From NCBI GenBank assembly GCA_006384855.1, contig VCJN01001034.1, positions 16,630 to 80,629 of the forward strand: a stretch of 64,000 nucleotides of DNA. The letters are read 5' to 3'. This DNA comes from Tetraselmis striata. Lineage: Eukaryota; Chlorophyta; Chlorodendrophyceae; Chlorodendrales; Chlorodendraceae. A program made the translations under genes and the position numbers. The notes under the pieces were generated by a model, which searched no databases, was not told the DNA's origin, and saw nothing but the letters and a program-made list of their open reading frames with translations. Below are positions 45,790 through 64,000 of the stretch, one piece after another (the stretch's first letter is position 1; each line of letters opens with the position of its first letter).

Positions 45790-46002
45790 TAGTTTTTTTC
45801 GTCCCCGGGACAGGACTCGCACCAGTGAAACCCTTGCAGCGTCTCTACGACGGCCGTTTAGGCAGCAATCCAGTTACGGAAAGCCCTGGGTAGGCGACGC
45901 TCCGTTATAGTCATCAAGCAAATTGCCGAAGCATTCTGCAAGACTAATTGAGGGCCAGTGACGGAATTTCCAACTGTTGGATCACCGTCTAAAACACTGC
46001 CA

Positions 46003-46509
46003 TCAAAATACCCGGCACTGACCACGAAAGGTCCGCCCTACCCGTTTGGGCGTCGGCCCATTCGAGTAATGCGAGTTGGGGCAAGCCCCAACCCGCGGAG
46101 CAAAGCATTTCGGGAGTGCGATACATGTGCAACAAAAAAGGCAATGTGAGGGAGGGCCCGACGCCATAGCTGGAAAAATTTCCCATTCCCAGTAAAATCC
46201 AGGGCGCCGTGAAGGGAGGCAGGGGGGGACCCCGCCCAAAATAAAGGCAGTTAAGTCCTCAGGTGTTGACGCAATAACCTGACTACTAATAAAATCCCGG
46301 AACTCTGGAACTAACAACCCAAAAGTATGCCGGTGATACCCCCACCTCGGGCACTCCACCAACATATGTTCGATAGTCTCATATTCACCTCCGCCAGATG
46401 CAGGGCAGTGTTCCAGGAACCGCTCAGGCATGGCATGAATCCGGGCCAATCGGCGGGCAGTGGGAAATACTCGGGTGCGTAATTGTATCATAATGTGCAA
46501 CCCGGCCAC
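46003..46509 (-). pseudogene. LINE ORF C-terminal zinc-like domain
   Basis: Contains H-x-MPERFLEHCP and ETIEHMLVECPRWGYHRHTF, the C-x-H-C type motif found after RT in many LINEs. Confidence 0.75.
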
Positions 46510-47578
46510 AACCCCCCGGGGACACCCACACCATACTGTGGGAACGGGTTTGACGCATAAGACGCATGGAAATATATACCCCAGGTTTTATTGCGTGCTA
46601 ACGATGCCGACGATTCGTAACGCGCCCACACCGATGCCTTTACTACTTTAGCGGCATCGCGCGCGGCTAGTGACCTCCACTCAAGTGGAAGGTGCGCCCC
46701 CTCAGCTAGCCCTACGTTCGCCCTAGCTAGTCGATCTAACCACCGCACAGTCCCTGACGTCCACGTGTTAGGGCGCGCCCGACTTGGCCGATCTACTAAA
46801 TGGGTTATACATGTATTCAAGTCGGATGCTTTAAGGAACGCACAAGCCCGTGCCGCAGCGGCCGTAGCCTCTATGGGCGCAATATCTAATTCCCGCATCA
46901 TCGGTGCAGTGGCCACCCCATGGGAGTTCTTACCCACCCCAATGAGGCACCGCAAGCACTGATTGAGTACGGTTTGTAATTTATTTGCGCCGCTAGTTCT
47001 ATCCATGCCCCATACTTCACACCCATAAGTTAAAACCGGCAGTACACAGGTTTTAAAGACCGACACACGCACATTAATAGGAATTATGTCCCGTCCACCG
47101 ACTAATACCGAATCGAGCGCCTCAATGGCGCGTTTACCCTTCTTAACCCGGTCGTCTACTATGTGTTGCATACCTAAATCCGACTTAATGACCGTACCCA
47201 AGTACCTATATTCATTTACAACCGGTACCCGTTCCCCCCCAAGCTGCCATCGGGCAGCTTGTTCGCGTAACGCGGTCTCGTCGGAATATCGGCCTAATGC
47301 CATCACCCCACACTTTAGTACCCCGAACCCCATAAAATGGTCCTCCGCCCACTGCGAGAAGTGGGCGAACATGGCATGCAGGTTATCGAACGAGCATGTA
47401 ATTCCAACAGCGTCGCTCGTCCGCGTATAACTGACATGGCACCCTTAGTGGTTGCCTTGCCGCTAATGTGGCGGTGCACCCTGCCTGGTACATCACACCC
47501 TAGATGTTCTACCCCATCGAATATATCGTTAATAAATATGTTAAATAGGGTGGGTCTTAATCCGTGCGCAAGCTGCAT
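46488..47578 (-). pseudogene. LINE reverse transcriptase
   Basis: Two overlapping frames (47315-47578 and 46488-47372) cover RT motifs from PTLFNIFINDI to the thumb. The catalytic YADD box falls at the join of the two frames and is disrupted. Confidence 0.8.
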
Positions 47579-47689
47579 GTCGCCAACTGGGAGTACAGTA
47601 TATCCCCATCTTTAGGGTTTCACTGTTGCCAGTCCTGTCCCGGGGGCGAAAAAATAGCATCCTCATCTTCCCTCGAGCTGGCCGCCCAT

Positions 47690-47790
47690 TTTTCCCGCCC
47701 CCGGGACAGGTCTGGCACCAGTGAAACCCTTACAACGTCTCTATGCCGGCCGTTTAGGCAGCGATCCAGTTACGGAAAGCCATGGCCGCC
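47690..47790 (-). repeat. Extra LINE 3'-end fragment
   Basis: CCCGCCCCCGGGACAGGTCT, continuing GGCACCAGTGAAACCC and CGATCCAGTTACGGAAAGCC, repeats 45798-45895. A short piece in the opposite orientation lies just upstream (47630-47665). Confidence 0.65.
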
Positions 47791-48647
47791 CATACCATAT
47801 TCGCACATATGCGATAGTAAGCAATCCCATGGCTTGTCGTGGTTTGCTTACATCTATGCTTTAACATCTGAGCACTACAAACAGAAATAAAAGCAAATGT
47901 GAAAGGTTGCTAGCAAAATAGAGACACTACAAGCTTGAAACAAGGGTTAAGCAGGAGGCTAGGGAGCCAAGAACCAAGAAAGAGCCAAGCAAGGGAACCA
48001 GGAAGTCGCCAAGGTGCCAAGGACCCAAAGGGTCAAGGGATGTCGTGGTCATTGTACTCTGTGATCCTTGTTCCCGCCCTGCGGCGCCCCCTTTTGTGTA
48101 AATCCGGGCTTACCCCTTTCGGCATGCTCTCTGACCGTTATTTCCCAGTCCATATGATGCAATAAAACTTTGCACTAAAATCCTTTAAACTCAAACGGCT
48201 CACAACTAAATGTATTCATTCCGGGTTGGGCGCCCTTCGCAGTCAGGTGACAAGGTGTGTGTAGCTACCTCTCTAGACCAATTTCTCCTGATGGAGTCAA
48301 CGTCTGAATAACCCTGTGCAATCCGTTTTTTCCGAACCTGGAGATTTCCGTAATTCCGAAATAAATACAATTTGTCCAATAGCGCCGGATAGATGCCTCA
48401 AACTGCGGTGATTTATCCCCGGGTAAATGATAAGAATCCCCATAACCTGATCTTGGATATATTTTCCTACGGCGCCCCTGCTCAGTTTGATATGTCCCGA
48501 ATTCATTCTCTTCCGTACTTGGTAGTGCTCGCCCACGAGGTTCCGGCTTTGTCCCGGGGGGAGGGGCGTCTGCATTTATTTATTCTAAATACCGAACTTG
48601 ATCTGTTTTTGTATCCCGACTCAATTGGGGTGGTGTGGTACCCTTCC
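47791..48647. other. Stretch left of the large transposon
   Basis: No gene supported. A block of GCCAAG/GGGAGCCAAG-type repeats lies at 47955-48040. A weak + frame at 48393-48650 has no recognised motif. Confidence 0.45.
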
Positions 48648-48651
48648 TAGG

Positions 48652-48681
48652 AACAGTAATTTAACCTATTTTGCGCCGTGG
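48652..48681 (+). repeat. Left terminal inverted repeat
   Basis: 30 bp, 27 matching the reverse complement of 62528-62557. Confidence 0.7.
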
Positions 48682-48845
48682 AATTCATTTTGCACCGTAG
48701 GGTTTGTTTATACCCTAGTTCCCGGGTTTACTATCAGTACTTAAGACTCACTGGTGATGTAGCTTGGGTTTGTAGACCCTGGGTGCAGTGCAGCATTCAA
48801 CAGCATGAAGGCCAGCCGCGACGCATATCCAATGTTGGTTTTGGA

Positions 48846-48869
48846 GCATTTTGTCCAAAATGGGACAAG
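48846..48869. repeat. Left inner motif CATTTTGTCC / GGGACAAG
   Basis: CATTTTGTCC then AAAATGGGACAAG, a near-palindrome about 76 bp from the transposase stop codon. Its counterpart near the right end is GGCACAAAATG (62436-62446). Confidence 0.55.
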
Positions 48870-48944
48870 ATGAGGCAATGAAATCAATATTTATTATGAT
48901 TATTACATCCAGCGGCTAGCTAGCCACAAGACGTTGCTGATAGT

Positions 48945-51900
48945 TTATTCGTTGAGCATCCCCAACTCAAGCAAGTCCTTCTTCGTGGCTGCGTTAAACT
49001 TGACGACTCCGCCGGGTTTGCGTTGCGCTGGGGTGGTTGACATGACGTGGACGCAGTTGTTTCGTGGCTGGCTGATTTGCCACCCAGTTTGCGCATATGT
49101 CTTCACGACTTGGACGCTTTTACCGTACCACTTCTTTCTGACCATGGTGCCGTCCTCGTTGAACACCTCTCGACTTCCCGACGCGTCGTGGATGGCCTTC
49201 GCGTACGATAGGGGGACGGCTTCAACAAGCTTCCAAGGAAGCGTCAGGCACTTCTCCCAGCTTGTGTCAACTGGCTTCTTCCCTCCTTTTGTCTGCGCGT
49301 ACAACCATAGGGGCATGAGGGGTTTGCCCTTTGCATCGGCATGGAAGGGCTCGTATACGGCCACGGTCAACGTGTCTTCGGTAGTCTCGCGCGACTTCAC
49401 AAGCCCGATGACGAATCTCGACTCCCAATCACCAAGAGTTTCAGGACACTTGTCTTCCTCATGCACCTAACGATGACCAAGACCGCGAGCTATGTTAGTC
49501 CCGAGCGAGACGCCACGCCATTTTTGTCCCAGCTGGGACAAAATAACAAGCAGGGTAGAAGAACCAAATTGTTTTGTCCCGTAAAGGACAAAAATGACAA
49601 ACAATGGGACTCACATCGGAGACGTCGATGACAACGAGGTTCGAGCCCTTTGCATCGCTGGGCGATGTGTTGTCATGAAGCCTCTCCTTGGCGCCGGCGT
49701 GAACTCCCCGGAAGGCGCTGTCATCTTGAAGCACTTGAGCACGAACCTCGGCTTCAACGCGAGCGGCTTCGGCATTGTTGAGGTCTGCGTTGGTAGCCAT
49801 CGTGTGACGTGCCTCAGCAGGCGCGGTCTGCCCGTGCCCGCGCAAGAAGTCGTCAACTTCCTCTTTCCGTTGCGGCCAGAACCCGGAGAAAGCTGCCGAA
49901 GGAGCAGTTTGCATCTCATCCAAGACGTCGAGCAGATTCTTCCAGCTCTCGCGCTCGACTGGGGAGAAGTGCCACTGGACCGCAAGGTCCGTGATGTACG
50001 ACCTGACCTTCTTGAAATCATCCAAGTACCTCTGGACCTTCACCGCGTCGGGCTTCTTTTTGTCGCAGAGAGCGTACAAAAGGGGCCGGCCCGCACGAAT
50101 CTCGGGCGTCCCAGTTGGCGCGCTCTTCAAGATCTGCACGGGCTCAGAAAGCGGTGTGTTGGACCACAAGGCGGTGCGCAACGAGCCGCCAGACGCGGCG
50201 GCGTCGTCACGGGTGAACTCGAATTTGTGCGGCTTACTGATGTCCTGAATGTGGTCTTGGAAATGGGGCCTTAACCACTCAGAGAAGTCGAGGGAGTATG
50301 AGAGCTCAGCAATCTCCGGAGTGGGCGAGAATGCCTTCGCCACCAAGTCAAGAAAGGCCTCGATTGTGTAGGCGGAGCTGCGAGATAGCGCAAGACTGAT
50401 GCGGCTGAAGATCTGGTCAACCCGTTCGTGAGTGTGCCCGACAGGCAAGAAGACCAAATGAATGACGTCGCAGATGCCGATAGACACAAGCCAATTGCAG
50501 AGGGCCGCCACGTTCCTATTCTTGTTCTCCCTGACGGTGTTGTCCATCTGGATTCTGATGTACGGAATCTTTCTACCACGGTGTTGAATTTCCTGCATCG
50601 CAAACCAGATTTCATCAGTCCAGGGCTACCGGACAACCACGGCGAACCTATCGGGAGGCTAACGAGCTCACCTTCATGATCGTGATCCATATCAGAGTGC
50701 ACGTCGTGGACGAATCGTGGGGGATGGTGTTGGTGTAGTAGTAGATGTCGTCCGGGCGGTATCCGTCGTACTTCACACAGGTGAGGTGGTACTTGAGGAG
50801 CATGTCGGGCTTCACAGTCTTGGGGATGCGAACCCAGTGAGGCAGCAGGGTCTTCGCGGAGTCCATGCTATCAATTTCGAAGAAGAAGAAGTTTCCATGG
50901 CCAAGGCGCGACTGGAAGACGGCGTTGTTCAGATCCCTTCGTTCCTGGCGCACTCTCTCGAGGTGTACCTTCTGCTCGGCTCTGACCTGACGCCTCACCA
51001 GCTGTTGATGTTGACGGTGCACTTGACGTTCCTCTGGCGTCATGTCCTTTGTGCAAATCTCGCGAGCTTGGTCTCTGAGTGCTTTGCCCGCCGCGCATAT
51101 GGGACAGTGGCTGAATCGCTTCACCTTCGGCGTGGTGACATCCGGGAAGTCTTCCTTCCAAGTCCGGCGGAAAGTGTCGAACGATGCGAGCTTCACTTCG
51201 CTCTCGGTAGCCAAATCTACAAAGGGGCAGGGGCATGATAGGTCGGTATACAAATAAGGTCTCATACTGCGAGACAGAAAAGTTCGGTCTAAAGTGGGTC
51301 GAAATAATTATATCGGTAGTGGGTGAATAATCATGGAATCAGCATGGCGAAACAATCTGTCATCAGTGTGACGAAACGGTATGTCAGTAGTGGGACAAAA
51401 CCGTCTCTCAGCAGTGGGACAAGACGTTCTCTCTGCAGGGGGACGATATCGGCTAATTATGTGGGAGAAATACTTTTGTGGTCGGAGGGACGAAACGGTA
51501 TGCCATGAGCGGTGCGAAACGTTCTGTCATCAGTGGGACGAAATCGGTCCGGCGTCGGTGGGACTAAACGTTCTGGCGATAGCGGGATGAAACGCTTTGT
51601 CATCAGCGGGACGAAACGGTATGTCATCAGCGGGACGAAACGGTTTGTCATCAGTGGGACGAAACGGTCTGTCATCAGTGGGACAAAACGGTCTGTCATC
51701 AGCGGGACAAAACGATTTGTCATCAGCGGGACAAAACGGTTTGTCATCAGCGGGACGAAACGGTTTGTCATCAGCGGGACGAAAGGGTTTGTCATCAGTG
51801 GGACGAAACGGTTTGTCATCAGCGGGACAAAACGGTTTGTCATCAGCGGGACAAAACGGTTTGTCATCAGCGGGACAAAACGGTTTGTCATCAGCGGGAC

Positions 51901-52836
51901 GAAACGGTTTGTCATCAGCGGGACAAAACGGTTTGTCATCAGCGGGACGAAACGGTTTGTCACCAGCGGGACGAAACGGTCTGTCATCAGTGGGACAAAA
52001 TGGGCCTCACCACGGAGAATGGCGTTGTCGTCCTCGGCCCACGACTTGTAGTAGTAGTAGACGCAAATCTTGGTCATCCAGGGAGGTAGGTGCTTCTTGA
52101 AGGTCTCGCTGTTTCCGTCATGAAAAGGCATGATCTCGACGTGACCAAGGTCATCCGAGAAGAAGTGCTCGAGAAACATGCGCACATGCTCCCTCGGTAC
52201 GGTCTGTCTGCTCTCGTATTGCTTGCGCTGCCTGATGTACGTGGGTTCGTTATCCACCACCGACCGCTGGATCACGAGACGTCTGTGTTTCGAGACCTGA
52301 TGCAAGGCCTCCCACGCACGCCCACACGTGTAGATGGGGCCGCGATGATCGAAAGATCGCAAGTAGCCACCGTGATCGAACATGTAATCGAACTTGTCGG
52401 ATGCCGACTCGTAGCCACCCCTGAGAACCTGAGCGAGCCGGTCAAAGGAGCGGTTCTGATTGCCCGAGTATACGGTCAACGCACGGTCCAACACGGCATC
52501 AACGAGGGCCTCTCCGCACTGTGTGTATAGCTTGTGCACGCACTTGCGCGAACAGCATGGCGACTGCTCGCTAGCCTCCTTGGCGAGCATGAGGCGGATA
52601 CAATCGCGAGAGGTGCGCTTGCTGATCAGAGACGAGACCTTGCCATTATCGCTTTCGGCGACCTCATCGGAGCCCTTGCCCCACGTGTACTTTCTTTTCT
52701 CAGGCTCCTTACGATCACTCGCACGCGCGTCGCAATCACACGAGTACCCGCTGCGGCACGAACACGTCGGTAATGTAAGTGTAGTGTCCGACTCGCCGGA
52801 TCCTGGAGAAGAGGCCATGCTTTCGACCGCCGCCAT
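48945..52836 (-). CDS. Large transposase-like protein (DUF7869-like DDE candidate), four exons
   Basis: Exons 52011-52836, 50672-51216, 49615-50592 and 48945-49466 join in phase to 956 residues. The N-terminus has a Cys-rich patch (CSCRSGYSCDCD), then CCSRKCVHKLY, and HDGNSETFKKHLPPW. Exon 2 has CPICAAGKALRDQAR and a first acidic site (FFFFEIDSMDSAKTLLPHW). Exon 3 has IQMDNTVRENKNRNVAALCN followed by VFLPVGHTHERVDQIFSRIS. The D, MDN and GHTH-x3-D elements match what I recall of the DUF7869-type proteins, which look like RNase H-fold transposases; that family name is from memory. The last exon may be a DNA-binding or regulatory tail. ATG 52836 (MAAVESMAS) is preferred over the ATG at 52944; both are in frame. 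Intron 1 is filled by the 24-bp array, and intron 3 holds a TTTTGTCCC palindrome. Confidence 0.75.
49522..49543. repeat. Perfect 22-bp palindrome in intron 3 of the transposase gene
   Basis: TTTTGTCCC, AGCT, GGGACAAAA. It carries the same GTCCC/GGGAC core as the element ends and the 24-bp arrays. A weaker copy follows at 49571-49592. Confidence 0.9.
51357..52006 (+). repeat. 24-bp tandem array 1 (transposase intron 1)
   Basis: Seventeen regular units from 51599 to 52006, each beginning GTCATCAG and with core GGGACRAAACG, preceded by degenerate units back to about 51357. The last unit ends four bases from the exon 1 donor (52010). On the gene's sense strand the units are in reverse orientation. 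Confidence 0.95.
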
Positions 52837-53375
52837 GCAGCGCGGGGCGAGAAGGGGGGGGCGGGGGGTGAAGGACTGTGATCTGTGGTGAGGAAGAGTG
52901 ACGGCCGATGACCGTTCTCGGACGGGCCGTTGACCGGGGGGCATAATATCCAGCTACGGGTCAAAATAATTGATGACTCAAATACCGTGTTATTTCGTGC
53001 TTCTTTCGTATGTCGGAAATAGTTCTATACTAGTAAGTACACCCGAATCCAATCCAAGGAATATATCATCCCATGAAGGAATATTATTGCCACGCCACTG
53101 TACTCTCGTACCGTTATGACTCTCGAGTAGGGAATATTTTATCTTCCAGTAATAGTAATATATAGTCGCAGTAGTTAGCCCTGTATATTCGTCGCGGTGC
53201 AAAATACATGAACATGATGACGACGACGAGGTACACTATAGTGTGCGCACGCGCGCCGTTTGTCCAGCAGGGGTCAGAGCGGCGGCAGACAGAAACCACG
53301 TCATTTCCACCTCTCCCTCACCGCTTCCCACCAAGAAACCCGCTCATCTACCGCGTCAACCGACCTACCGCCAGA
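52837..53375. promoter_or_regulatory. Shared 539-bp region between two divergent genes
   Basis: It separates the start codons of the transposase-like and methyltransferase-like genes, so it must hold both promoters. It is AT-richer than the exons and has a G-rich patch near 52851-52866. No core promoter motif could be assigned with confidence. Confidence 0.5.
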
Positions 53376-56300
53376 ATGGCGCCGAAGAAGAACGAGCCTG
53401 CCAAGGACAAGGAAGACAAGGACGACGCCACCCCAGGTGAGTTGCGCGCGCGTGCAGTACCTGCCTGCCTGCTCGACGCGTGATACGGCCAGATCTAGCG
53501 AGTTCGGTTAGGGTTCACTGTATAAGCGGTGTAATCTAGGACCACTCGAGGTGTAGGCAGACGAGTGGCAGCGTACAGTAGCCGCCTGCCTGCTCGACGC
53601 GTGATGCGGCCAGATCTAGCGAGTTCGGTTAGGGTTCCCTGTACAAGCGGTGTAATCTAGGACCGCTCGCTCGAGGTGTTGGCAGACGAGTGGGAATAGA
53701 AACCCAAACGAGACGAGCGGCGTCAGGGTCCTGCAGGGTAGTATTACGTCCCGTCGAGGCAGCTGCGGCAAGCAGTAAGGATGCTAATTGGTGATGGGAG
53801 CGGGTGGGGTTGAAGAGCGGTCAGGGGGAACATCTGCCTGCACTCCGCCGTAAGGAGTGGTTTAATATTAGTGTGAAGCGCAGTACTTCAAGACATAACA
53901 TTATTAAACCGCAGTACATAATGTATTGAAAATAGTTTTGTCATCAGTGGGACGAAACGGTTTGTCATCAGTGGGACGAAACGGTTTGTCATCAGTGGGA
54001 CGAAACGTTCTGTCATCAGTGGGACGAAACGTTCTGTCATCAGTGGGACGAAACGGTTTGTCATCAGTGGGACGAAACGGTCTGTCATCAGCGGGACGAA
54101 ACGGTTTGTCATCAGCGGCACGAAAGGGTTTGTCATCAGTGGGACGAAACGGTTTGTCATCAGTGGGACGAAACGTTCTGTCATCAGTGGGACGAAACGT
54201 TATGTCATCAGTGGGACGAAACGGTTTGTCATCAGCGGGACGAAACGTTATGTCATCAGTGGGACGAAACGGTTTGTCATCAGCGGGACGAAACGGTTTG
54301 TCATCAGTGGGACGAAACGGTTTGTCATCAGTGGGACGAAACGGTCTGTCATCAGTGGGACGAAACGTTCTGTCATCCGTGGGACGAAACAGTTTGTCAT
54401 CAGTGGGACGAAACGGTTTGTCATCAGTGGGACGAAACGTTCTGTCATCAGCGGGACGAAACGGTCTGTCATCAGTGGGACGAAACGGTTTGTCATCAGT
54501 GGGACGAAACGGTCTGTCATCAGTGGGACGAAACGTTCTGTCATCAGCGGGACGAAACGGTCTGACAGGATATGATATTTGTAGGCCGAAGGTCCAAGCG
54601 GACATCAAAACCTACCGAGAAAGCAAAAGAATTCGATGCGCTCGGAGCGCTAGTAGGGAGAAAACACAAGGCGTCATCTTCTGTGCCAGAGCAGCCGGCG
54701 GCGAAGAAGAAAAGTGCAGCCTCAGCTTCTGCAGCTAGAGCCGGCGCTGAGGCATCAGGTAACCCCTGGAAACCGAGCCTTTTAGGAGGTAGGGTGACGG
54801 CTTACGGCACGCATTCGCAAGGAGAAAGATTGGCCGCCTTGCGTTTGAGGGACCGAATCAAGAGCGGTCAGGTCCTCTCAGATGCTCAAATGCAGACAGC
54901 GCGAAGGCTAATGGATTACGAAAAGCTCATGCAAGCTTACTATCAAGCAGGTCCTTGCCTCTCCAATCACATGATTTTTGTGTGTGCACTGTGTCATATT
55001 GACATTGTTTGAAATCATGTGTGTTTACATGTTCGAAAGGACGCGCACAAGAGCCAGTAGCGACTGAAGCTTCAAAGGAATCAAAGGGGAAAGAAAAGGT
55101 TTCAGAGACAATTGTGACTCCAGGTAATTGTGACTGAACGTATCAATCCCTGCCTTTGTGAGTGCACTGTGTCACATTGACATTGTTTAAAATCATGTGT
55201 GTTGACAGGTTCGAAAGGACGTGCACATGAGCCAGTAGCGACTGAAGCTTCAAAGGAATCCAAGGGAAAAGAAAAGGTTTTAGAGACGATTGTGACTCCA
55301 GGTAATTGTGACTGAAAGTATCAATCCCTGCCTTCTCACTCCCTTCGATTACTTTCTCGTCAATGAGTTATCTGACGTTCCAACAGGTCGTAAATTGGCG
55401 CAGGCAACCGCGTCGGAAGCAGCTGGTAAATCGGGATCCCCAGGTAAGAAAAAATACGCTTGGCTTTGATGGTGTATGGCGATACCGTTCGGTAGTTAAT
55501 CGTGACGCCCACCGCAGGTGTGTTGAGTACTCTCTACTCATTCTTTACAGGTTCCCCGAATCAAGGCTCTACTTTGTCTAAAGGCCCGCCGCAAGTACCG
55601 GAAACCTGAAACCGGAAGCCTGAAATAGAGCACACTGAGCCGGAGCCGGAGCCCGAGCCGGAGCCTGAAACAGAGCCCAATGAGCCCCAGCCAGAGCCTC
55701 GGCATGAGCCTGAAACCGAGCCCGCTCAGATGGAGCCCGAGCCGGAGCCCGAGCCGGAGCCCGAGCCCACCCCGCTTGACCCGGAGCCGGAGGCCGAGCT
55801 CGAGACTCCAGCGCCGACTACCGGGCAAGCGTCTGGTTCTGGAGCCTCTTGTTCTCGAGCCCCCGTTGCCGAGGCTCCGAGAAGGGTTCCTGAATTCCTC
55901 AGTATGTGCACGGATGAAGAGGTCTTCGGCACAGAGGAAGAACAGAGGCAACGGGCGGCGGAGAAGCGTGAGCAAGCTCTCGACATCACCGGCACTCCCG
56001 GACCCGAGAGGAAGACAAAGCTGATGACGGTCGCCTCTTACGACGACTTCTTTGACGAGAGGGACGGGTCCCAAGAACATGACTCCTACAGCGACTTTAC
56101 CTCAAGGAGCTGGACTATCCACTGGTTCAAGAACGCAAGTGCTAAGGTCGAGATCTATTTGTACATCGAATTGCACAAGGCGAGCCTGCTGACTGGCAAG
56201 GACTTTTTCGATGATCCGAAGGGGCCACTTCTCGCGTGTATCGGAAAGATCAAGGACGTCAAGCTGGACTCGGCCGGAAACTACGGGGTGAGTAAAGCTT

Positions 56301-59300
56301 ATATGATGTCTGAATTCGTGTCAATGTCGTGTTTCAATAAGTATTAATATTCTTGTGCTTGTTACCGCAGATATCTCTTGAACCTTATCGCTTGACAGTG
56401 CACAAGGAGTACATGATCGATGTCAGCTTTGAGAGGTTGCTACTCCACGCGATCCAACCGTCACTCCCCTTCCAACCGCGGTTCCAGTCTTACTACGCAT
56501 GGACTTTGGTCGAGCGCAATGTGCTGGCGCAGGCGCTGACAGGTTTCGCGTCGGGTCAGATTGACATCGATGACTTGGCCAACATTGACAAGGATTTTAA
56601 GAACGCGCTTCCATACGTCAACACGTTGGCCGTCCCGCCGGCCTGGAATGGCTTCCACAACACCGGTGCCGTCGACTGGATCTCTTACGGCCACCTCAGA
56701 GTCGAGATTGCTGATCCAGAGGTGAAGACATCTCACGGTGGCGACATCAACATGTTATACGCCGACAAAGTCAACCTCGTGGTCAACAAGGCTACGGGGC
56801 TGCCTTGCATTTTCAGCTTCATATCCGATACGTTCGTCGCTCTGCCGCCGGAATTTGAATTCCGTTCCCCAAAGCTGCAAGACTGCAATATGGTGGCGCA
56901 AAGCTACAAGGTAAAAGCCTATCGCGACCTGTTGTACCTATCCGGATCAGATATGTGTAGTTACATATAAATCAATACACAATGCAACTTACTGACATCC
57001 ATTTCTTGCATTTGTTATTCAGAGAAATCCTTCCCTATCCGCCGAGAATTTCTCGGTGTCCTTTCCAGTAGTCCCTAAACATGGGTTTTTATCCGATGAG
57101 TACGAGCCCCTGGCTCTGACCATGGCCAACTTCAAGGAGCTAGTCGCAGCAGACCAAGGCGGGGAGAACCCGAGGTTGGCGGATTCAAGTTCCTACAAGC
57201 CAGAGATCGACGTCATCGACGAGTTTCTTCGCGCCCACGGCGCGCGTCAAGCCAACATCGACGGCAGCCACAGACGGGAGGCGAAGCGCATGGTGAAAGA
57301 AAACTACCCGGATATCTACAACGCCAACAAAGGCATCCACCTCACGTCGACTAAGATGTACATCGGCCTCTCGCCGGAAGTCTGCCGCTACATGTCTATG
57401 AAGCTCAACGAGGCGGGTCACACCGTCGTGGGAGACACGTCGATGCACACAACTCCTGGTGAGTGACCCATTCTCCCAGATTACTACACCCCTCCACATA
57501 AGTTTGGGGTCCCTTTTCGGCAGTCTCAAGACTTCACAAGTCTAGGGTACCTGAACGTAGGGTATATGAGATGAAACCCTGGAATCTCAGAGGGCTTTAT
57601 AAAACCTGCATGACGAGTGGCTCAAACCGAAGCTTAATGACCTTTGACTAGGGAATCACGCTGCACTTGGTGCGTGGATGGGCGTCGCCTGCAACTGCAC
57701 CAAAACCGGGGTCGGTATCACGCACACGCCGACGCGCGTGCATAGGCAACCAAACGGCGGGATGGCCATGAACGCGTGAGGAAACACATTGGCGAGGGGC
57801 TCGGGTGCATTTGGTTGGGGTGCAGCCGTGTGGGCGGCGGCCAGTGCATGTCGCGTTGCGATACTGGCATGGCATCAGTGTCGGCCACGCGCGGCAACAC
57901 CCCCTTGGCTTCAAAACGCTGTAACTTTTCAGGGTTTGCTCAGAAAAACTTTTTAAAAATATCACGCCATTCCTCGTTCAATTCTGCGTCGGGAACACTC
58001 TTCCATAATCACAAAATCGATTTTTTGGGTCTCCGAAAAAAATCCCCAAAGATGATCATCCAAGTTGCCCCTCACTGCCTCATGTGCCCACCCATATCGG
58101 GCGCGTGGCTTTGCGCCAAGTGCGTGTCTAAGCCCCATACTCAGTTGCGCGAGAGCGTTATGTATGTGGATGACCACGGACCACCAACACTTGGCATGTG
58201 CCACCTCCTAGCGATACACACATCTACTAGCCAAAATGCCATTTTCCACAGCATTTTTCAAGGAATTTCATATTAATCAAAATCCACGCCCCTACCGCGC
58301 CACCCCGCCCACGAAACGGTGCAACTGGCATTCCACCACGCGCCCCCATAGTAGAGCATTGCCCTACGCCAAGGGGGCCATCGAGCGCCTCTCCTACGTG
58401 CGTTCGCCACAGAAACAGCAGCATTTTCACCCCAAAACTGCTCCCCACAGTGGCCAACTTGACGTTGGGATGTCACGTCGTGCCTATAGCGACATGCTTT
58501 CGGTGGCCTACACGCACGGTGTGTGCAACTTATGCCAAGGGCCGTATCCACCGGGTTTGGTGCGACGAGTGCCGCTATTTCCATAGGTTTGGACGGTTGG
58601 CGCAACCCACAACTTTCTGGCGCCAACGCACCATGCAATGATTTCGCGTTTTTGAAAGGGCGCCCACAAATGGTCGTGTTGTCGCGCGGGTGGGTATAAA
58701 GCGCACAATAGGCGTTCGCCCGAACTATTCCCACTGTAGTTAGCATGTATGCACATGCAGCCGGCGTTATCCTCGCCCATGCATGCGCTTTGCGATCGAA
58801 AATGCAAAACCCGGACTTATGTGGAGGGGTGTATTTAGCTAACCGTGGCAGCAAATAGGCGTAAAGTGTGACAAAAGTCGTTCTGTCGTTAGCGGGTTTA
58901 AAATATGTCACAGTGGGACGAAACGTTCTGTCATCAGCGGGACGAAACGGTCTGTCATCAGTGGGACAAAACGGTCTGTCATCAGTGGGACGAAACGTTC
59001 TGTCATCAGCGGGACGAATCGGTTTGTCATCAGCGGGACGAAAGGGTTGGTCATCAGCGGGACGAAACGTTCTGTCATCAGTGGGACGAAACGTTCTGTC
59101 ATCAGTGGGACGAAACGGTTTGTCATCAGTGGGACGAAACGGTTTGTCATCAGTGGGACGAAACGGTCTGTCATCAGTGGGACGAAACGGTTTGTCATCA
59201 GTGGGACGAAACGGTTTGTCATCAGTGGGACGAAACGGTCTGTCATCAGTGGGACGAAACGGTCTGTCTTCAGCGGGACGAAACGTTCTGTCATCAGCGG

Positions 59301-62211
59301 GACGAAACGTTCTGTCATCAGTGGGACGAACCGTTCTGTCATCAGCGGGACGAAACGGTTTGTCATCGAGGTACAAGCGTTCGGAATTTTGAAATCGGTG
59401 CAATTGTTTCTGCAGAACCTTCGCAGATGTTTCGAGAGCTGGTATGCAGAACAGGATGCAAATCGCCCCGGCTTTAGGGCACTTCCGCAAATCAGGGTAG
59501 TGAAGGAGTTCAAGAAGTATGAAGTTCTTCAAGTTGAACTTGAGAAGATCGGCATAAAAGATGAGAAGAGCAGCGAGTTCTCAAATTTGATTGACCTCTG
59601 CTCGCGCCCACAACGGTGAGCTGCGTACATGATGAAAATTTGTCGTGTTGTTAATGCTGCTAGATTCTGACAAATGATTTGCGCAGTGTTTTTGAGCCCC
59701 TTGAGCAGATTTCTGAAGCCTACCGGCATGTGGACCTCGGGGTTCGAGGATGGAGCGAAGCCAGAACCAAACTCGGAGACCTATTGGTGTACTACGAGCA
59801 AGAACTCGATAGACTCAAGCGGCGCCTCAATTACGGCAGGAAACTCACCCAGAAGGAAGTGAGCAAGGTTTACGAAGCAATTCGGAAGCCTATCAATACA
59901 ATCCTCGATAACAAGAAGTACGGCTTCGGGAAAGACAGAGCTCACTTCCGAGTCGCCCTCATGGAGGTAAGTTGTGACCGACCCCAATGTCTTAATCATA
60001 TGGAATACTATGATTGATTCCTTTCTCCGTACTGAAGTTTGTTTTTCGACCCAGGATGTCGGCTTTGGACCCCATGCGCCATGGCTAGACGAGCCGTCTC
60101 TTGCCAAGCAGAGCGACAGCGCGGATCTCCCTGTGGGCCAGATGTACCTGGTGGTTGGACTGCTCATCCAAGGCGAGCACAGTGTGACCCCGAGCCTCTA
60201 CGAGCTGGTGGATGACATTAAGCATGCCGGCGACGATGGCCCCATGGCTGTCACGCACACCAACGCGGAGTGGCTCGCGATGATTGAGACCTGGCGGTTT
60301 CGCGATCTCTTGCGTCGAGCAAGCATCAAGCTCATGAATGCTATTGGCACGGCAAAGGGACACGGACAGGAACTCCAACTGCTGACGCCGGACGAACCGG
60401 CCAGGAACTGGGGGAAATATCTCTCGGACCACATCATCGAAATGGATGTGGATGACGATGTGTCGGATGAGCAAGCGGCCGCTCGCCTTGACGCCATCAC
60501 CAAGTTCGGAGCCAAGGTTGATGACCTCGGCCCAACAGGCTTCCCTAGAAAGTTCCAGGATTTGTTCAAAGGTGCTCATCGCTCCGGTCCGTTGATGGTC
60601 TTGCTGACCCCTCCTGCCAGATGGGGGGACATGAAATCCGCCGATTGTCTCACACCACTACCGGTTCGAGAGCATATCGCGGCCACCAACACCACCATCA
60701 GGAGTGAGGCGTATCGCATCAAGAATCAGATGCCGGACTTGGTCATCTCCTTCTTCACAGAGTTTGCTCTTCTGGCATGTGCCCCGGAGCTTATCGCGGT
60801 TTCCGCTCCGAATGTTTCTGATGAGCTGTGGATATCGATGAAGGTAACTAAGATCTTGTGCAACCACAAATGCTCTTCTGAATTTTCGTTGTGAGCTATT
60901 AACCCGAATCTGTTTCCTACCACACACAGGCCGCGGCTCTTCCGGTGATGCCCAAGGGCTTTGAGCTCGACCAGGATGACAAGGTGTGGTTGAACGAGGA
61001 GTTTTGCAAGACTTGCATTGTGGAGGGGAACTTCAAGGCTCCCGCGACAAAACAATTCGCCGCGGACGCCATGTCGGCAGTTCGTGCCAAAAAGGCAACA
61101 GTCTTCATTGCCGACGCGCTTTTCGGAGCTGGTTCGCACACATGGGACTCGAAGGATGCTGCGTGGGGTACGGACGACTTCAACGACGTGTTTGCTTTCG
61201 CCAGGCAAGACAACCCCAACAACCCCGGTGCGTACTAGATGACTGTGCTTTCATTTATCTCATTCCCGATTTACCCCCGCGCAGGCAGTTGAATATCCTG
61301 ACTGGATCTTCTGACGTCCACACTGCTCTCGATGGGTGCCATTTCTTCATTCACCTCTCGGACCAGCAACTTGGATCCGCAATCACAGCCGTTCAAAAAC
61401 AAGCTGAGGACCTCATCTATCACGTCCTGACTTGGGCCAAGGATTGCGGGATGAAGATGGGCAGCTCTCTGCGTCACGACGCTGAGTACTACCTCTACGT
61501 CAGGAAGCCCCCGCCAAGCATCATAGCTGACAACATCCGTTTCAATGATCCCCGAAGGTGAGATTTGATCCGTGGAAAATAGCCGGCTTGTATATTCTAC
61601 TCGCTAAGCCGGTTGTGCCTTTCCAGGTTCTCTACATCCATCATGTTGGGTCACTTCAAAGACAGTTCGAAATTGAAGGACGAGAACAGACAGACGGTGA
61701 ACAAGTACCAAAAGCCTATCGCTCTCTTCGCCAAGCACCTTAAGATGGCGGCAACAGACGGGACAACAATCGTCGACGTCACAGCCGGAACCGGGACAAC
61801 CGCGGTGCGTGAGGGGTGCAACCCGGGTGAGTGTCTTAATGGGGTCAGCATAAACAAATTAACGCCTTGTGCGGTTTGCCACGCCTTTTCCAGGTCGCTG
61901 CGGCCTTTTCCGTGTGGTGGGACCATATGGAATCTACCTACTCGTTCACGCACAGGAACTTGAAGATTATCCTCATTGACAACCAGAAGACGCAAATCGC
62001 TGGGATGAAGTCCAGGATGACCTCATGGTTCAAAGAGAAGCCATGGGACGAGACTCAAAGACTGCGTCCAAGTGACTTCGAGAAGTGGCCGGGTCTACCC
62101 CTTCCAATGACCGAGTTAGAGGAGCGGGAAGAGCGTGCAGCGGCGGAGAAGAGGAGGCAACAGGCGGCAGAGCGCCGAGGAGATTATGTGATCGAAGATG
62201 ATGATATGTAG
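53376..62211 (+). CDS. Large protein with C-terminal DNA amino-methyltransferase domain, about 15 exons
   Basis: Exons 53376-53436, 54585-54950, 55040-55123, 55218-55301, 55387-55443, 55551-56287, 56371-56910, 57023-57458, 59450-59615, 59687-59966, 60055-60843, 60930-61204, 61285-61557, 61627-61804 and 61894-62211 keep phase (about 1,547 residues). The N-terminus is basic and disordered, with an E-P repeat. The middle (exons 6-11) is unrecognised. The end follows beta-class N4C/N6A methyltransferases: TVFIADALFGAGSHTWD (motif IV position, DALF instead of DPPY), CHFFIHLSDQQLG, EYYLYVRKPPPS, NKYQKPIALFAKHL (motif X), IVDVTAGTGTTAVAAA (motif I, SAM), IILIDNQ. A TGA at 55607-55609 is in frame unless a 135-bp in-phase intron (55595-55729) is removed. 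Intron 12 needs a GC donor. Exon 9's start is the least sure. Confidence 0.72.
53460..53693 (+). repeat. Direct duplication of about 115 bp in intron 1
   Basis: GCCTGCCTGCTCGACGCGTG and the following GCGAGTTCGGTTAGGGTTC occur twice with few changes, in the first intron of the methyltransferase-like gene. Confidence 0.85.
53940..54563 (+). repeat. 24-bp tandem array 2 (methyltransferase intron 1), 26 units
   Basis: Exactly 26 units of 24 bp with start GTCATCAG, core GGGACGAAACG and variable last bases (GTTT, GTCT, TTCT, TTAT). It ends 21 bases before the exon 2 acceptor at 54584. Confidence 0.97.
55040..55301 (+). repeat. Tandemly duplicated exon (exons 3 and 4)
   Basis: A unit of 178 bp containing an 84-bp exon and its intron is present twice. 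The exons encode EPVATEASKESKGKEKV, followed by (S/L)ETIVTPG, with only two or three changes. The copies are in phase, so both can be used or skipped without a frameshift. Confidence 0.9.
57487..58831. mobile_element. Complete TIR transposon copy 2, nested in intron 8
   Basis: 17-bp perfect inverted ends (CACCCCTCCACATAAGT at 57487-57503, reverse complement at 58815-58831) with TA on both sides (57485-57486, 58832-58833), 1,345 bp. The TA target suggests the Tc1/mariner group, but no catalytic motif could be read in the broken frames. One frame has spaced cysteines (HCLMCPPISGAWLCAKCVSK). The copy begins 28 bp after the exon 8 donor of the methyltransferase-like gene. Confidence 0.88.
58886..59370 (+). 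repeat. 24-bp tandem array 3 (methyltransferase intron 8), 18 units
   Basis: Eighteen regular units from 58930 to 59361 with degenerate flanking units. Same consensus and orientation as arrays 1 and 2. It lies just right of the nested transposon and about 80 bp before exon 9. Confidence 0.96.
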
Positions 62212-62240
62212 TACAATTCCGCAAAATTAGCCGCTCATAT

Positions 62241-62452
62241 GTTTTGTCCCGGCTTTGACAGAGTTTCAGCCCCGGACGGCACAAACTGCTTGTAGCCATC
62301 ACGGCCCCCGCCCTTATTTTTGTCCCAGTTTGGACAGAGTTTCAGCCCCCGACGGCGCAAACTACTTGTAACCATCCCGTTTCCTTCACTCTTTTGATTT
62401 GTCCCTGCTTGGACGGAATTGGTTTCCCCGACTTGGCACAAAATGAACCAAC
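62241..62452 (+). repeat. Right subterminal repeats, three units
   Basis: Three units begin TTTTGTCCC or ATTTGTCCC, followed by a GGACRGA block, (A/G)GTTTCAGCCCC and GGC-x-CAAA (62241, 62317, 62396). They lie between the methyltransferase stop codon and the right inverted repeat and share the GTCCC core with the left end. Confidence 0.8.
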
Positions 62453-62527
62453 CGGCATTCATATTAGCTTTCAATCCCACTGCTGCCCCCAAACCCTAAT
62501 TTAGACCTAACCACAATGCACCGCGTG

Positions 62528-62557
62528 CCTCGGGGCAAAATAGGTTACATTACTGTT
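62528..62557 (-). repeat. Right terminal inverted repeat
   Basis: Reverse complement matches 48652-48681 at 27 of 30 positions; followed by TAGG (62558-62561), as the left end is preceded by TAGG (48648-48651). Confidence 0.7.
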
Positions 62558-62561
62558 TAGG

Positions 62562-64000
62562 GCCATCATGCCATGCCCTCAACTTCTCCCTCTCGCCCGC
62601 TTAGGCCACTGCGACAGCCCCTAGGGCATGATGCACCTATCATGCCTAATCATTGTTGCTGATGACTTGCCAAAATACACATTGATGTTTCCAATTACGC
62701 CCGAATTTAGGTCATTTAGCCCTTTTGGTGTGTATTTCGGCATTGATGTTGTTTGTAGTAATCTTCCCCATATTCCCAGTCGCATGCTTTGCCTTGTTAC
62801 TAGACTTGCTAGACTATATATACGGTTGGGAGAAACGTTGCATTTGTTTTTTACACTTCTCACTTTCCAGCCGGCCCTTAACACTGGGCGAAGTACTGCC
62901 TATGTACTAAATCCGGGCGAGCCGGATGGTGATGACAGTGTACTCCTGTGAAACGGTGGACCGCGCGACGACCGGCCGACCCACCACCAAACATGCCCCA
63001 CAGGAGGTCATCACTACAGCCACCATGGAGATCAACAGACTAGAGGAGCAATAGAAGGCCACGGTCGGCGCCGCTCTCGATGCGCCGCGCGGCGGCAAGA
63101 CCCAACTTCCCAAGATCCGATCCGCCATCACTGCGGAACAAATCGCAGGCACCCGACTTCCATCGGCCGCCCGCCCCATGCTAGCTGACGGCCAGCGCCC
63201 TCCGCGGCGTGAAGAGCAGGCTCCGCAAGAGACTACCACAACAGCCAACAAGGACATCAACAGACCCGAGGAACACCAGGCGGCCGAGGTCGGCGCCACC
63301 ACCGATGCGCCGCGCAGCGGCAGAGCCGAGCCCCCCAAGACACCCAAGATCGCGACTGCTAACCACCCGGCGCCGCATACAGCCGACCAGTCGGCGAAGC
63401 ACCACGGCCAGCTCCCCCAAAAGCCCTAGCCACCACCAACTACATACCCAGCTACAAGTGGCCCACGACCCGGCCGCGGCAGCCCCTCAAGCCACGGAGA
63501 TGGACAGCGACGACTCGCCACCGGCAGTCGCGCAGCCGGCGACAAGCGTCGATCCAGCCCCGCACCCCGAGCCGGCTCCACCGGCCGCAGCGCAAGCCCC
63601 CACCGCGACAAGAGTGACATGGGAGGCCAACAACCCCTCGAGCATAACCCCACATCCAGCACACCAGCCCAGGCGTCCCGCCTGGCCTAGCTCGCGGCAG
63701 AGGCTCATCGCCCCCGCCGCCCCCCGCGCCGGAAGGCCCCCTTGCAGCCGCAAGTGGATCGTATGCGGATGCTCCGTAGGCAAGGCGCCCAACCCCAAGC
63801 TGGACGCACGACTGCGGCTATCAGCGCCGCCACCCAAGAACTCCGGACGTTTCTAGCCGGTATGCCCGGAATGCATTTTCGAATTTACCAGCACTATTCC
63901 CCGCAAGTATTACAAACAGTGTATCGCCCGACCCGCGGGCTTGGTACCGGTAAAGACACGAGACGAAGTCGTCATGCCATTAAACGCAGTATAATGTGCC
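62562..64000 (+). other. Flanking stretch with degenerate gag-like, duplicated coding sequence
   Basis: A TATA-like ACTATATATACGG lies near 62813. From 63000 a unit of about 220 bp is duplicated in frame (MEINRLEEQ then a stop; DINRPEEHQ), rich in Pro, Ala and Thr. A further frame to 63856 (TRVTWEANNPSSITPHP) and a C-x2-C piece at the window end suggest a decayed retroelement gag, but no diagnostic domain is seen. Confidence 0.3.

Follow-up and report, generated by a model that had tools for sequence, protein, structure and literature searches.

The DNA considered here is a 64-kb window of the marine green alga Tetraselmis striata, corresponding to positions 16630-80629 of contig C821 in the 224-Mb assembly that was searched, and its positions 48652-62557 are a copy of a DNA transposon that is young and present in high number. 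The complete element is 13,906 bp long and is occupied by two divergent genes, gene A, whose product contains the uncharacterised domain DUF7869, and gene B, whose product ends in a methyltransferase-like domain and resembles DNA-marking enzymes of bacteria. Its borders recur precisely, it is flanked by 4-bp duplications, an uninterrupted version of its target exists, its ends are near-identical among copies, and the two genes are linked. It is very likely that both genes are integral to the transposon, and the overall explanation, an integral two-gene element that moves by a cut-and-paste route, is probably correct.

An earlier reading of the window, made from the sequence only, had proposed a 13.9-kb transposon with 30-bp inverted ends, TAGG directly outside each end and two divergent intron-rich genes filling the interval, and each of these features was recovered. 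The left terminal inverted repeat (48652-48681, forward strand) begins AACAGTAATTTAACC at 48652, and the right one (62528-62557, reverse strand) is its imperfect reverse complement, with agreement at 27 of the 30 positions; no other 30-mer within the 64-kb window matches either end at 20 or more positions. Across the genome, the first 149 bp of the left end recur with 99-100% identity at each of the best 40 of 386 candidate places, and the last 150 bp of the right end do so at the best 40 of 387, the 41st match of the right end being a relative at 83%. As judged from the end positions of nine copies, the shortest of them measures about 7.3 kb (C70) and the longest about 14.8 kb (C2644). In four further stretches that were read (C2865, C2760, C2525 and C1193) the right end was not found.

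The TAGG copies in the window lie at 48648-48651 and 62558-62561. Nine copies were read at both ends, a count that leaves out C663, which was read at its right end only, and C1240 and C746, where the stretches sought lay beyond the contig ends; in eight of the nine the flanking 4-mers are identical, namely TAGG (C821), ATGT (C2683), TGCA (C2224), AAAC (C1470), GTAC (C238), GTCG (C70), CTAT (C2644) and GTGA (C48). Because these eight copies show eight different 4-mers, TAGG is ruled out as a fixed target sequence: the duplications that the transposon makes are 4 bp long but variable in sequence. The sequence-only reading had suggested looking for more copies with the same ends, both genes and 4-bp duplications, as well as for an empty site with a single TAGG, and both were encountered. 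When the window flanks are joined with one TAGG, contig C2421 matches them at 97% over 300 bp, gapless at the joint and with a single TAGG; rightward the match holds at 98.3% across all 1,439 bp of the window, and leftward the local alignment stops after about 180 bp. Contig C2421 is thus an uninterrupted target site elsewhere in the genome. The insertion target itself (window 48502-48651 and 62562-62711) is a member of a repeat family, with many more genome places at 76-84%. A separate observation concerns C2683:40829-40974, where an end that is 83% like the right end abuts another copy across that copy's ATGT; a sister family of the transposon therefore exists beside the copy in C2683.

Gene A occupies 48945-52944 on the reverse strand and is modelled as a protein of 1016 amino acids. 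As with gene B, its exon structure is a prediction obtained by splicing the genomic sequence: four exons (52944-52011, 51288-50672, 50592-49615 and 49466-48945) separated by GT-AG introns, with a putative start codon. The protein matches PF25273 (DUF7869) with an E value of 8.5e-44 and 149.9 bits, the curated cut-off being 26, and structure prediction gives it an RNase-H-like core resembling those of DDE integrases and transposases. The arrangement of D, MDN and GHTH-x3-D that had been pointed out from the sequence is present, and the protein has the three acidic residues of an RNase-H-like transposase. The first acidic motif, EIDSMDSA (50855-50878, reverse strand; residues 449-456), has a first D that is invariant against four relatives from other sources; the second, IQMDNTV (50533-50553, reverse strand; residues 531-537), was likewise compared with relatives; and in the third, LPVGHTHERVDQIFSR (50401-50448, reverse strand; residues 566-581), the E and the D are invariant in five sequences. 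The transposase reading is strongly indicated and backed by the predicted core, and we are highly confident that gene A is the transposase. A Pfam scan of gene A at E values up to 1 returned only DUF7869 and a sub-threshold DUF3335, and a sequence search of the PDB only one ribosomal protein (E 0.57). Pfam includes a KDZ model; no KDZ domain was among these matches, and the scan gave no support for assignment to the KDZ elements.

Gene B occupies 53376-62211 on the forward strand, with 14 exons and 1555 codons, and all 14 exons align in the copy in C2224; its introns are all GT-AG in our own splicing model. The 431-bp spacer between the start codons of the two genes (52945-53375) is presumably a shared promoter region. 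The C-terminus scores above the curated PF01555 cut-off of 26.7, with 28.1 bits for the whole protein and 32.0 bits for the domain alone, and the domain also matches DNA methyltransferases in phage and defence libraries. The S-adenosylmethionine (SAM)-binding motif I lies at 61775-61896 (forward strand), where DVTAGTGTTAV is split by an intron, and a pairwise alignment with a viral methyltransferase placed IADALFG at the position of motif IV (DPPY) at 61107-61127 (forward strand). In the chain DALF (residues 1261-1264), a placement that depends on that one pairwise alignment, precedes motif I (residues 1441-1451), and the order of motif IV, then motif X and motif I is that of the beta-class amino-methyltransferases. 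The viral enzyme, L082, has sequence similarity to CcrM and to further amino-methyltransferases of solved structure, and its DLPYG faces IADALFG of gene B. By these resemblances the domain belongs to this fold family, and gene B ends in a divergent beta-class N6/N4 amino-methyltransferase domain. The beta-class fold named in the sequence-only reading is supported by PF01555; it needs one correction, in that motif IV departs from the canonical DPPY and reads DALF.

In most of the annotated gene B proteins part of exon 12 is left out; the annotated protein P0092 does contain this stretch. Against phrog_67 the window domain with this stretch scores 37.7 bits versus 30.2 for P0002 without it, in a comparison of sequences that differ elsewhere too. 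Sequence searches of the PDB with gene B gave no match. Inside gene B, window 54977-55334 consists of two copies of a 178-bp unit, the second of which contains exon 3, and it is possible that this exon arose by duplication of the unit.

The two genes travel together. Scoring the best 150 of 548 candidate DUF7869 places, each listed row being above the cut-off, and the best 150 of 286 candidate places for gene B exon 11, we found a scored gene B place on the same contig for 91 of the 150 DUF7869 places and, for 81, a divergent gene B exon within 15 kb, at a median gap of 8,993 bp; only five pairs within 15 kb have another orientation. Places without a partner, among them 69 of the 150 for gene B, may reflect contig ends, deletions or places outside those scored. 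In several cases the Tetraselmis protein catalogue (jgi/Tetstr1) numbers both genes consecutively, as in 428262 and 428263. Relatives of gene B were confined to Tetraselmis among the matches listed in two protein searches, both of which scored the best 8,000 or so candidates by common words: residues 980-1555 returned at least 14 proteins and the domain at least 41, all from that catalogue. A scan of prokaryote genomes with two patterns gave no relative, and a phage tblastn search gave three matches at E values of 3 to 6, the record examined being annotated with hypothetical proteins only. The catalogue also holds three models, P0017, P0018 and P0077, in which DUF7869 is joined with other domains (PF07714 and PF00069; PF00443; or the PF01555 of gene B), and these are either annotation joins or real fusions.

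Both genes are under similar purifying selection. Ratios of nonsynonymous to synonymous divergence (dN/dS) were taken from a simple Nei-Gojobori count with non-independent pairs, broken copies included, stop codons skipped and no neutral control. For gene B (exons 10-14, in 18 of 20 copies, L041 and L044 having been dropped at fewer than 450 codons) summed dN over summed dS is 0.43 (0.31-0.59) in the 53 pairs with dS >0.08 and 0.52 over all 153 pairs. The corresponding values for gene A (exons 2-3, all 20 copies) are 0.46 (0.26-0.75) in 69 pairs and 0.53 over all 190.

A third feature of the element is a repeat shared by the introns of both genes, as the sequence-only reading had noticed. Tandem arrays of a 24-bp unit occupy 51356-52000 in gene A (intron 1) and 53937-54561 and 58906-59367 in gene B (introns 1 and 7). 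Close to the right end, three subterminal direct repeats (62242-62432) follow one another at spacings of 76 and 79 bp, and two of the three contain the array core. This core, GGGACRAAA, occurs 62 times in the arrays, in one orientation throughout, five times elsewhere in the element and twice in the 50,094 bp outside it. The copy in C2224 has 74 such words in three clusters, two of them in introns 1 and 7 of gene B and the third where the spacing would place intron 1 of gene A, the exons of gene A being unaligned in that copy. The repeats look like a putative binding site for a protein of the element.

With regard to mechanism, the gene A protein would cut at the inverted ends through its RNase-H-like DDE/D active site and join the ends to target strands 4 bp apart. 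Gene B is probably a working partner of the element as opposed to chance cargo, given its presence beside the transposase even in diverged copies and a degree of conservation close to that of gene A. Its most likely place of action would be the element's own DNA: the protein would bind SAM through motif I, which we consider probable, and then either methylate an amino group in that DNA or, should DALF be catalytically dead, serve as a SAM-dependent subunit that binds DNA; that gene B methylates DNA at all is a suggestion to which we give slightly less than even weight. The intron arrays and the subterminal repeats, with GGGACRAAA in common, would be the likely docking places. The most specific version of this proposal, a self-marking transposon whose own amino-methyltransferase, with a previously undescribed DALF motif, methylates the GGGACRAAA repeats in three introns and near the right end, is speculative and on balance improbable. 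The methyl mark would in that case license or protect transposition, and, as far as our searches show, the element would be without precedent among eukaryotic cut-and-paste transposons in writing an N6-methyladenine (6mA) or N4-methylcytosine (4mC) signal of its own.

Several observations count against an integral transposon with a functional partner gene. One of the nine copies, C2669, has unequal flanks, CTTC versus GGCC, which may be due to recombination or a misjoined assembly. Foldseek alone found no match for gene A at E <=0.001, the best being SETMAR at E 0.081. The gene B of the window has one in-frame TGA in exon 5, that of C2224 has frame-changing length differences in exons 7, 9 and 10, and that of C238, a copy beyond the 20 compared, is missing motif IV. 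Motif I (DVTAGTGTTA) is fully intact in only 13 of the 20 copies, with a changed residue in two, a gap in three and no alignment in two. A structure prediction of the gene B C-terminus, made from an annotated protein that lacks part of exon 12 and with a shallow alignment, reached a mean predicted local distance difference test score of only 33. Per-exon dN/dS, which is as low as 0.28 in gene B (exon 12) and 0.42 in gene A (exon 3), rises to 0.91 in exon 14 of gene B and 0.82 in exon 2 of gene A. Moreover, six copies that have the two genes in their normal arrangement (C2110, C184, C1460, C884, C48 and C2224) were compared with the window copy at silent sites, and gene B proved 2.3 to 3.5 times more diverged than gene A; the two halves therefore lack one simple common history, which suggests mosaic copies produced by recombination between element lineages. 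Finally, motif IV of gene B reads DALF and so departs from [DNS]PP[YFW], a defining catalytic motif; gene B is for this reason not filed as a proven methyltransferase, and any catalysis by it is putative.

This last point bears most directly on the alternative in which gene B has a methyltransferase fold without catalytic activity, retained in order to bind DNA or the gene A protein, which we regard as a serious contender of somewhat lesser probability. Inactive partner subunits are known in other methyltransferase pairs. The non-canonical motif is the normal state of the family and not the decay of a single copy, since it reads DALF in 19 of the 20 copies compared and NALF in one, and the PF01555 match begins only after motif IV. 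The same alignment can be turned against a dead enzyme: all 20 copies retain the aromatic last position and 19 the acidic first one, even copies at dS 0.12 to 0.17, whereas an unused catalytic site would not be expected to stay strictly conserved. The viral relative, moreover, reads DLPY, so that at least the second position of the motif is variable. Gene B could also be passenger DNA, caught once and carried without function, and the stops, frame changes or lost motifs in several copies, together with the nearly unconstrained exon 14, are what one would expect of such DNA. Its overall dN/dS is nevertheless about as low as that of the transposase, and in C2224 its splice sites read AG or GT at 24 of 26, the other two being unreadable where exon alignments fall one or two bases short. 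Chance cargo is accordingly unlikely and, among methylation, a binding role and cargo, the least likely account of gene B.

That the interval represents a pair of adjacent host genes flanked by chance repeats, or else a virus that has integrated, is hardly credible given that the same borders occur in many copies, that the 4-mers are equal in eight of nine and that an uninterrupted site exists. Tetraselmis genomes do contain integrated Polinton-like viruses (PMC10120064). Yet a Pfam scan of both proteins showed no capsid, polymerase or helicase match. Of four pattern scans of viral contigs, the two run with gene A and one of the two run with gene B sequence gave no relative; the remaining one, made with the gene B core, yielded a single viral methyltransferase that matches over 42 residues around motif I. 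On these scans of the two proteins and of viral contigs, a virus is rejected.

Transposons that carry DNA-modification proteins are already known, and the combination of a DUF7869 transposase with an amino-methyltransferase-like partner was not found described in the literature searched. Some fungal DNA transposons encode a TET/JBP dioxygenase and others carry SET histone methyltransferases (PMC12730594). The TET/JBP elements share with the Tetraselmis element inverted repeats and a transposase accompanied by an enzyme family that acts on DNA bases (PMC12730594); their enzymes, however, oxidise 5-methylcytosine or thymine, whereas the present element has an amino-methyltransferase fold, DUF7869 and a green algal host. 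Retrotransposons with a captured DNA methyltransferase are present in Symbiodinium and charophytes (PMC5890265) and are likewise mobile elements that possibly mark their own DNA, but theirs are C5-cytosine enzymes shown to methylate CG (PMC5890265), in contrast to a putative amino-methyltransferase in a DDE transposon. The N4CMT of bdelloid rotifers belongs, like gene B, to the N6_N4_MTase type and is likewise encoded in the nuclear genome of a eukaryote; it is a gene of the host, has SPPY and a chromodomain and marks transposons (PMC8885841), whereas gene B lies inside a transposon and has DALF. Sola2 elements resemble the Tetraselmis element in their 4-bp target duplications and short inverted ends, and sometimes have an extra gene, Fanzor1 (PMC3627910), but the duplications described for some Sola2 families are AT-rich (PMC3627910) and those found here are not; in the parts covered, the description of Sola2 mentions no methyltransferase (PMC3627910). 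A DNA transposon with an amino-methyltransferase was not found in the best-ranked open literature, and a description in subscription papers or Repbase is possible. Tetraselmis does not occur in the portion covered of the main text of a 6mA survey across eukaryotes (PMC12695648).

With this element DUF7869 gains a context and a likely function, that of the DDE core in a transposon that makes 4-bp duplications, and an amino-methyltransferase fold joins the few DNA-modification proteins known to have been captured by eukaryotic mobile elements. Since its copies are young and numerous in a culturable alga, the question of self-marking can be asked directly by long-read methylation calls, and a working element could become a gene-transfer tool for green algae.

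Rfam and tRNA scans of the whole window found nothing. At 45794-47730 a 41-nt sequence occurs at three places, two of them inverted (93% complementary) around a 1.8-kb stretch that holds an open reading frame of 294 amino acids (46488-47372), whose product looks, by eye, like a portion of a LINE reverse transcriptase; this region is possibly another mobile element beside the transposon.
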